Shown: positions 34,659-36,545 of the stretch, in pieces
Layout: each line of letters opens with the position of its first letter
Numbering within the stretch: position 1 is the stretch's first letter
Source: Blautia coccoides
GTDB lineage: Bacteria > Bacillota > Clostridia > Lachnospirales > Lachnospiraceae
Assembly (NCBI RefSeq): GCF_034355335.1
Contig: NZ_CP136422.1
Span: forward strand, 2,948,501-3,012,500
DNA: 64,000 bases
Reading direction: 5' to 3'
The notes under the pieces: generated by a model
Databases searched by the model: none
What the model was told of the DNA's origin: nothing
Seen by the model: only the letters and a program-made list of their open reading frames with translations
Position numbers and translations under genes: made by a program

Positions 34659-36461
34659 TTATTGGTGTTTACAACATGGGCAGGGCAGTTTTGGCAGGCA
34701 GGGAAAGCATTGCTTCGGAGGACAGGGAGGCTCCGGAGGGCAAGGAGGCATTGGAGGGCAGGGAGGCTCTGGGCAGCAAGGAGGCATTGGGGGGCAGGGA
34801 GGCTCCGGGCAGCAAGGAGGTTTTGGAGGGCAAGGAGGCTCTGGGCAGCAAGGAGGTTTTGGAGGGCAGGGAGGCTCTGGGCAGCAAGGAGGTTTTGGAG
34901 GGCAGGAAGGCTCCGGACAGCAGGGTGGTTTCGGAGGACAAGGCGGTATTGGAAGACAGGGAGGCTCCGGGTAGCAGGGCGGTATTGATGGATAAGGTGG
35001 TTCCGGACAGCAGGGTCTTATGGGGAGACAGGGCTGCCCTGGTCTGCAAGGCGATACCGGCGGATAGGGCGGTGTCGGCGGGTATGGCGGTATCGGTGGG
35101 TATGGCCACTGCGGCGGGTATATAGGCATGCAATTGAAGCAGGGTATACATCCAAACCCGGGAAATCCGCCGTTATTAGCATTATTGTTGTTATTGCTGC
35201 TGTTATTATCGTTGTTATTATTGTTATTATTATTGTTGTTATTATTGTTGTTATTATTAGTGCTATTATTACTGTTGTTTGACTGGCTGCTGTTGTTGAT
35301 GGATATACTCTGACAGGAATGAGAGGTACCTGCCGAAGGCTCGGGGACAGCGACGCATAAGCAGATAGAGGTCGTGACAGTGGTATTTGTGTTTTCAAAA
35401 GTGGCCCCTATAGGCTGATAGTTCTGTGCATTTGGCTCCATAGTTACAACGCGTGTTACATTTCCGGTAACAGAGACGTTTATCTGGAAGCACATAAATT
35501 TGCGTACTGCGCGTACTACCAGATAAAATTCATCACCTATTTTGGGTGAGGAGACTGCATTTCCACAGAAGTCTGCGAAGGAAGCAGAGAATCCATTTTC
35601 ACAGGAGCAGAGCGGCTCAACGGTGATGGATGGAGTTCCTGTGAAAGAGGACTGAAGGCAGAACGGACCGATCAAAAGGCGCCCGCAGATGGTACGGACT
35701 TCGTCCGGACAACCATGAAAAACAACATAGGGAATGCTGGGGTCACCAGGGATCACACCTTTGTTGCAGCACTGAAGAAAGTCCTGAGTACAACAGTTCC
35801 TGCTGCCAAAGGAGTTGGCTGAGAGAGAGACAGAGGGTGCACTGGAGGCTTCATCGGCAAATCTGCCTGCCATTTCCAACAGCCGTAGTACGGCGGCACG
35901 CATACGCTGTGATTTCGGATGTTCCGCGTCGGAGCCGCAGTCTAAAAATTCCACTTCGGACGGGGCGATTTGACCCAAAAGAACCCAAAGTGCCACCTGA
36001 ACAGCAGCATAGGCATCGTTATCATCCAGAACAGGACTCTCCTGGCTGTCTACACCTACAAGGGAAAAGGTCTGGTCTGCTGTGACGGTTGGAAAAGCGT
36101 TGGCCATGATCCAGGCCAGCATTTTTTTCTGACGGGCTGTGGCTGTAGGAAATAAAGACTCAAATGATGTGCTCTGATAGGGGATATCCCCGTAAGGGCC
36201 ATCGGCAAATTTGTCCAGACAGTATGCCATACGCGTACTTCCCTGGGAAGTGAGAAAAAACTGAAAGATTTGATTGTGATCATCACGATTCAGCCGATAT
36301 CTGGAATTTTCTGTTGTATCCAGGGCACAATAGCTCTCCACACCGGGATTGCCGGTTGCCGTGCCGCTGATATCTGTTCCCGGATATATAATAAATGGCC
36401 GTGTTGGCGGCATATCTGCCTTTGTCTGTACAGAGGCAGCAACAAATTCTATTTTAGACAT
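34659..36461 (-). CDS. Thioester-domain-like protein with Asn tract and Pro/Cys repeat tail
   Basis: A 600-residue protein of very unusual composition. The N-terminal part (about 45-170) resembles a Cys-Gln thioester (TED/TQXA) adhesin domain: RMAYCLDKFADG supplies the Cys and AYAAVQVALWVLLGQ the Gln. A Cys-rich middle domain (about 210-375) follows. Next is an Asn/Ser tract (about 388-430) with 16 consecutive Asn, then a Pro/Cys-rich tail (about 435-600) with about five copies of a 12-residue unit like PPKPPCCPEPPC. There is no signal peptide, membrane anchor or LPXTG motif, unlike known thioester adhesins. The start is ATG 36461, with GGAG 8 bases upstream. A spore-surface or other cross-linked surface role is an inference; cytosolic function is hard to picture. 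Confidence 0.75.
   Translation of the reverse strand: MSKIEFVAASVQTKADMPPTRPFIIYPGTDISGTATGNPGVESYCALDTTENSRYRLNRDDHNQIFQFFLTSQGSTRMAYCLDKFADGPYGDIPYQSTSFESLFPTATARQKKMLAWIMANAFPTVTADQTFSLVGVDSQESPVLDDNDAYAAVQVALWVLLGQIAPSEVEFLDCGSDAEHPKSQRMRAAVLRLLEMAGRFADEASSAPSVSLSANSFGSRNCCTQDFLQCCNKGVIPGDPSIPYVVFHGCPDEVRTICGRLLIGPFCLQSSFTGTPSITVEPLCSCENGFSASFADFCGNAVSSPKIGDEFYLVVRAVRKFMCFQINVSVTGNVTRVVTMEPNAQNYQPIGATFENTNTTVTTSICLCVAVPEPSAGTSHSCQSISINNSSQSNNSNNSTNNNNNNNNNNNNNNNNDNNSSNNNNNANNGGFPGFGCIPCFNCMPIYPPQWPYPPIPPYPPTPPYPPVSPCRPGQPCLPIRPCCPEPPYPSIPPCYPEPPCLPIPPCPPKPPCCPEPSCPPKPPCCPEPPCPPKPPCCPEPPCPPKPPCCPEPPCPPMPPCCPEPPCPPMPPCPPEPPCPPKQCFPCLPKLPCPCCKHQ
34740..34937 (-). repeat. 36-bp tandem repeat encoding the Pro/Cys tail
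   Basis: About five near-identical 36-base units encode the 12-residue repeat. The units differ mainly at Lys/Met and Pro/Ser positions. Long stop-free frames on the opposite strand arise from the same repeats and are not genes. Confidence 0.85.
35172..35297 (-). repeat. AAT/AAC triplet tract encoding poly-Asn
   Basis: A triplet microsatellite (plus-strand ATT/GTT) mixing AAT and AAC codons, encoding Asn with a few Ser and one Asp. It is prone to length change by slippage without loss of frame. Confidence 0.85.
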
Positions 36462-36517
36462 AAACATAACTCCTTTTATATAGAAATGGCAGCAGGAATT
36501 AACCCTTTGCCTATAAA

Positions 36518-36545
36518 TAAAGTATGCGGGAAAAGCTTAAAGGTA
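36518..36545 (-). promoter_or_regulatory. Candidate sporulation-type promoter of the thioester/Pro-Cys gene
   Basis: On the minus strand CATACTTTA (36518-36526) matches the -10 pattern CATANNNTA of SigE/SigK-type promoters, with a TACC (36542-36545) 15 bases upstream resembling the SigK -35. It lies about 60 bases before the start codon. No SigA-like promoter was noticed. Such a short motif can occur by chance. Confidence 0.3.

Follow-up and report, generated by a model that had tools for sequence, protein, structure and literature searches.

A Class II thioester domain protein of Blautia coccoides with a sigma-K-type promoter motif and without export signals, a candidate spore-surface protein

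The window analysed here, a 64,000-nucleotide stretch of the Blautia coccoides genome (family Lachnospiraceae; contig NZ_CP136422.1, positions 2,948,501 to 3,012,500), contains a gene for a 600-residue protein composed, in this order, of a thioester domain (TED), a Cys-rich region, an Asn-rich stretch and a Pro/Cys tail (Table 1). An in-frame ATG at 36467 would be an alternative start giving 602 residues, but the ATG at 36461 was preferred because the sequence AAAGGAG lies 8 nt upstream of it. Residues are numbered from ATG 36461; numbers in a preliminary description of the gene, counted from 36467, are two higher. That description had noted the run of 16 Asn, which is encoded by 9 AAT and 7 AAC codons intermixed and therefore is not a one-codon run, as well as the 12-residue Pro/Cys units, which correspond to a 36-nt tandem repeat. 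Cysteine accounts for 49 of the 600 residues, 32 of them within the tail. A spore-coat or exosporium protein had also been suggested, and the analyses below bear on this idea.

Table 1. Features of the gene and its upstream region, with positions in the window
Feature	Position	Strand	Basis
-35 element AC of sigma-K-type site, 16-nt spacer	36543..36544	minus	Sequence and family pattern
-10 element CATACTTTA of sigma-K-type site, 65-57 nt before the start codon	36518..36526	minus	Family pattern
Ribosome-binding site AAAGGAG	36470..36476	minus	Sequence
Coding sequence, 600 amino acids	34659..36461	minus	Open reading frame; without signal peptide, without LPXTG
TED head lobe, residues 23-207	35841..36395	minus	Pfam match, structure model and Foldseek
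Cys81, predicted thioester Cys (Y-C-L-D)	36219..36221	minus	Family alignments
Gln155 of TQxxΦW-type motif, not the predicted bond partner	35997..35999	minus	Family alignments and literature
Class II TED beta-sandwich and P/Q hairpin, residues 222-373	35343..35798	minus	Structural comparison
Gln349, predicted thioester Gln (NYQPIG)	35415..35417	minus	Family alignments and structural comparison
16-Asn run, residues 402-417	35211..35258	minus	Sequence
Pro/Cys tail, residues 431-600	34662..35171	minus	Sequence
36-nt tandem repeat, 6.1 copies, 89% match, 12-residue Pro/Cys units	34717..34937	minus	Repeat analysis

The earlier view of the protein as TED-like was confirmed by a profile search, in which Pfam PF08341 (TED) matched with 45.9 bits (E 7.9e-12; cut-off 22); the NCBIfam TQXA model scored 22.1, below its cut-off of 30.4. 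TED was the only Pfam domain above cut-off in the window protein, with no isopeptide or ester domain, and the heads of 22 aligned family members gave the same result, 16 of them matching PF08341 at E<=0.01. The predicted structure (pLDDT 83.6, pTM 0.80) has the TED fold, TEDs being its best matches in the PDB (the best 9 Foldseek rows in one search and the best 12 in another). In this model a beta-sandwich separates the helical lobe from the Gln hairpin, as in Class II TEDs. The middle of the protein is indeed Cys-rich, as had been described, but its status as a separate domain was rejected, since structural comparison places it inside the TED, as part of the modelled Class II beta-sandwich. 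An Ena-like fold for this region, suggested by a single weak Foldseek row (8pdz, E 0.14, probability 0.08), was unsupported.

Relatives of the same architecture, at least 31 and several of them partial, were found in a protein database search that scored the 8000 candidates sharing most words with the query. They comprise 27 close relatives (P0002-P0028, with P0002 nearly identical to the window protein) and four divergent ones (P0029-P0032, 25-29% identity). The close relatives are annotated, where named, as thioester domain-containing protein and in one case as 'Beta antigen'. A scan of one genome per species (84,980 species) gave 29 loci. Loci L019-L033 include an 83% identical match in a metagenome-assembled genome (MAG) and matches in Hungatella, Faecalicatena, Diplocloster, Murimonas, Dorea sp. 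D27, Emergencia timonensis, Bacilliculturomica and others, and L034-L047 are 14 loci in 13 Oscillospiraceae MAGs (24-42% identity over the best segment). True members occur in 5 of 200 Lachnospiraceae genomes, the window's own counted. A sixth apparent carrier (L013 in G174) was dropped, as it matches the tail part of the profile, with internal stops and a Pro-Glu repeat opposite a Gly-Ser repeat. At class level 3 of 391 genomes matched: the window's own, G378 (L056, a true member) and G539 (L058). The last (L058:1-2670, minus strand) was rejected as a protein of another kind. It starts with a signal peptide-like segment and has a TED-like head, which Pfam TED misses at E 0.01; its sandwich is found by the family profile, and DUF11 repeats are present. 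The family is rare yet spread across distant groups, and a tblastn search for a phage origin gave no match in the phage collection.

Several loci depart from the common architecture. An Oscillospiraceae MAG carries a tandem cluster of six relatives (L039:29-11773), in which TED is missing from two proteins with sandwich and tail (L039_0 and L039_4), and two neighbouring genes encode a TED lobe and a sandwich separately. TED-less copies were seen in this locus only, and a protein search with the sandwich profile for standalone copies gave two partial members, both also with TED. In Bacilliculturomica (L032:9962-11049) the gene looks broken, the TED frame stopping before the sandwich and a Pro/Cys fragment lying in a downstream open reading frame (ORF). 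In P0016 the Asn run is followed by an NlpC/P60 domain and not by the Pro tail, and the N-terminal ~400 residues are common to P0019/L056; either domains were exchanged at the Asn tract or the sequence is an assembly chimera.

In published TEDs the Cys bonds to a Gln further along the chain, on strand Q, and the Gln of the TQxxΦW motif is described as inessential for the bond (passages of PMC6194298 and PMC4450167). In the window protein the Cys in the [YFL]CΦζ context is Cys81 of YCLD and the later Gln is Gln349 of NYQPIG, and these two are the predicted thioester pair. Both residues, as well as Gln155 and Trp159, are invariant in 22 of 22 aligned members, down to 25% identity, in an alignment that leaves out L039 and L043-L047, where residue losses occur. 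In a wider set of 33 sequences (38 rows minus L039_0, L039_3, L039_4, L046_0 and L047, in which one lobe or site is absent, the broken L032 copy being excluded), Cys81 and Gln349 are both kept in 29 and both lost in four, and neither is ever kept alone. The four (L043, L044, one copy of L045 and one copy of L046) have Phe/Tyr and Arg in their place and retain Gln155, which is Ala in L039_5, a copy retaining Cys and Gln349. This pattern and the published chemistry led us to reject Gln155 as the partner of the Cys; the Cys83-Gln157 distance proposed earlier as a test (Cys81 and Gln155 in the present numbering) was thus aimed at the wrong pair. By counting back from the aligned ends, Gln349 falls at residue 256 of 6fwy and residue 235 of 6fwv. 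With numbering offsets of 36 and 31 in the two entries these positions would fit the published Gln292 and Gln266; the estimate presumes that the last 24 residues are free of gaps. A loss of 17 Da is recorded in PMC6194298 for recombinant TEDs, whose expression was probably cytosolic, so that a thioester may form without secretion.

The four relatives without the pair look like one clade, and the joint loss may therefore be a single event. They raise the alternative that the fold has been retained for a structural role, as a Cys-rich block in the spore coat, with a thioester that is vestigial or does not form. The divergent L039_0 and L039_4, which lack the TED head, agree with this, but the invariance of the four residues in the 22-member alignment makes it an unlikely explanation.

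The absence of a signal peptide and of LPXTG, reported at first for the window protein, was found in every family sequence examined. Among the 28 family sequences with a located start (the window's included), N-terminal hydropathy reached at most 1.62 (median 0.70), and none had the strongly hydrophobic N-terminal segment of a Sec signal peptide; for four TED proteins of the window genome with signal peptide-like starts, the values were 2.20-2.46. LPXTG was found in none of 36 family sequences, of which four (L019, L020, L027 and L047) run off the contig before the C-terminus. Judged by its sequence, the window protein would be classed as a TED protein and not as a wall-anchored adhesin. Five other TED ORFs of the window genome (L003-L007) start with signal peptide-like segments, the N-termini of L005 and L006 being nearly alike and that of L007 close.

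Promoters recognized by sigma-K and sigma-E in C. difficile are described as having a common -10 element, with AC versus ATA at -35 (PMC3789822). A site of the form AC-N15-18-CATANNNTA was present at most 150 nt from the start in 21 of 28 members, versus 6 of 351 other ORFs at these loci, a comparison that ignores kinship among members. By group, the site was found in 15/16 sequences for the window and L019-L033, and in 6/12 for L034-L045. One ORF per locus was counted, with starts chosen by a script; those of L035 and L042 were corrected by hand, which raised the count from 19 to 21, and L046 and L047 stayed outside the 28 because the ORFs matched there are cut off by the contig start. The control ORFs were chosen mechanically, and a seventh match among them was removed, being the family member L029. 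In 200 dinucleotide shuffles of the set before start correction (19/28), the site appeared in at most 3 of 28. No sigma-E-type site with ATA at -35 was found among the 28 members, and no sigma-70-type site in the 239 bases scanned upstream of the window gene. The sigma-K-type site is also present in L008 and L056, outside the 28 and both near relatives of other members.

The window genome possesses a SigE gene, SpoIVA and a SigK-type gene. The latter scores 302 bits with PRK05803 (cut-off 252), a model that SigE passes as well at 258, and 294 with TIGR02846, just under the cut-off of 298.65; its score with the SigE model is 202. SpoIVA was found in 27 of 28 carrier genomes, the exception being a genome of 1.4 Mb, on a background of 135 of 200 genomes in the window's family. 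In Emergencia timonensis a collagen/BclA_C gene lies 0.8 kb upstream of the family gene, with no ORF between them, and is itself preceded by a glycosyltransferase gene; these two upstream genes each have a sigma-K-type site. A BclA_C search gave 11 matches in 7 of 16 genomes, four of them over cut-off, and L064 and L065 were dropped as other proteins with signal peptide-like starts. As a positive control, the sigma-K-type site was found at 6 of 9 BclA-type genes in carrier genomes (3 of the 4 over cut-off), in a scan of ~320 nt around the frame start (150 nt for the Emergencia gene) that was wider than the family's 150 nt; the strict motif was not found in the ~320 nt scanned at L060, L067 and L068. 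The promoter motif, the genome content and this one neighbour thus lend indirect backing to the spore-coat or exosporium idea. The protein could instead be an adhesin of the vegetative cell surface exported by a non-classical route, given that published TED proteins are described as surface adhesins and that the window genome also has TED proteins with signal peptides. This is very improbable in view of the missing signal peptide and anchor, the sigma-K-type site found in place of a sigma-70-type one, and the presence of SpoIVA in nearly all carriers.

From the TED sequence and predicted fold, the joint conservation of Cys81 and Gln349, the lack of export signals, the sigma-K-type sites and the occurrence in genomes with a sporulation gene, we infer, with a probability of about 0.7, a Class II TED protein that is made under sigma-K in the mother cell and laid on the spore exterior, with a Cys81-Gln349 thioester and a disulfide-locked tail. 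Sigma-K RNA polymerase would produce it late in sporulation and the protein would be deposited on the outside of the developing spore, no signal peptide being needed because it is made in the mother cell and laid onto the spore. The head (residues 23-373) would fold and form the thioester on its own, the Asn-rich stretch would act as a flexible spacer, and the Pro/Cys tail would be an extended rod locked by disulfides into the outer coat or exosporium. The displayed thioester would acylate an amine, which could belong to an outside target, giving covalent spore adhesion, or to a neighbouring spore protein, giving a cross-link.

Several observations weigh against this spore-surface reading. Real members were found in only 5 of the 200 Lachnospiraceae genomes, and SpoIVA in 135, so the protein is accessory, and no conserved operon or neighbourhood was seen across genera. 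The sigma-K-type promoter is a motif match. It is absent in 7 of the 28 members, six of them divergent, and occurs in 1 of 7 further paralogues of clusters L039, L045 and L046 (one with only 28 nt upstream), and the window genome's own BclA-type gene (L060) is without the strict motif. Finally, the joint loss of Cys and Gln in some relatives indicates that the fold can serve without a thioester.

The proposed thioester could act outward or inward. Outward action is possible, at a little under even odds. Tentatively, endospores of gut Lachnospiraceae, and of Oscillospiraceae represented by MAGs, may display on their surface an internal thioester that is still reactive and bonds covalently to host or diet molecules. 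The protein would be delivered by lysis of the mother cell, without secretion, and a disulfide-linked Pro/Cys rod would hold it in place. Acting inward, the protein would become cross-linked spontaneously, as the spore shell assembles, to Lys residues of the coat or exosporium proteins next to it, and would serve as a glue of the shell and not as an adhesin. Its probable synthesis inside the mother cell beside other spore proteins would suit this role, and the L039 paralogues, some TED-less or with TED and sandwich in separate genes, and the Cys-less copy beside a Cys-bearing one in L045 resemble a mixed scaffold. However, the bond sits in a narrow pore in the Class II TEDs of solved structure, the one identified target given in PMC6194298 is external (fibrinogen), and closer relatives show one locus per genome; we consider inward action conceivable, with the odds against it.

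Thioester adhesins are described in published accounts as surface proteins of Gram-positive cells. If the spore-surface reading is true, a sigma-K-controlled, non-secreted Class II TED family extends thioester chemistry to spores, through which many gut Clostridia are transmitted, and offers a testable molecular answer to how spores hold on to the host or how their shell is cross-linked. A covalent glue reported until now from growing cells only may thus also be present on spores. The 29 sequences with the Cys/Gln349 pair and the four without form a natural set in which the roles of thioester and fold can be told apart.

Among described proteins, Class II TED adhesins and Cys-rich exosporium proteins come closest. 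With the former (E. faecium TIE86, 6fwy; B. anthracis BaTIE, 6fwv; S. aureus TIE, 6fx6) the window protein has in common the head lobe with its YC motif, the TQxxΦW-like helix, the beta-sandwich between helices and Gln hairpin, and the Cys-Gln pair (passages of PMC6194298). Those are wall proteins with isopeptide domains, BaTIE with a Sec signal and LPATG according to the same source, whereas the window protein has no signal, LPXTG or isopeptide domain, and has a Cys-rich sandwich, an Asn spacer, a Pro/Cys tail and a sigma-K-type site. Its high Cys content is like that of CdeC and CdeM of C. difficile and of CotY/ExsY of Bacillus. In passages of PMC6101409, CdeC (9% Cys) and CdeM (8.7%, with Asn-rich repeats) are reported to have no conserved domain and to be absent from Lachnospiraceae, which sets them apart from the present family. 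No paper on a spore-linked TED family was found in the open-licence PMC literature, and the family, joining a predicted reactive TED head to a Cys-rich tail, appears to be undescribed.

A D-Ala-D-Ala carboxypeptidase-like gene, labelled from NCBIfam matches that were all below their cut-offs, lies upstream of the family gene in three related genomes (L023:7742-9073, L026:8414-9775 and L029:7734-9065), and an ORF similar to it, by resemblance only, is upstream in L008. BclA-type collagen exosporium glycoproteins are also of the spore-surface class and one adjoins the family gene in Emergencia timonensis, but with their collagen stalk, BclA_C head and no TED they are unlike the window protein. 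Two weakly BclA_C-like proteins, L062:1144-1866 (26.6 bits) and L069 (minus strand, 23 bits; cut-off 38), have a Pro/Cys-rich segment resembling the tail of the window protein, each with an upstream sigma-K-type site.
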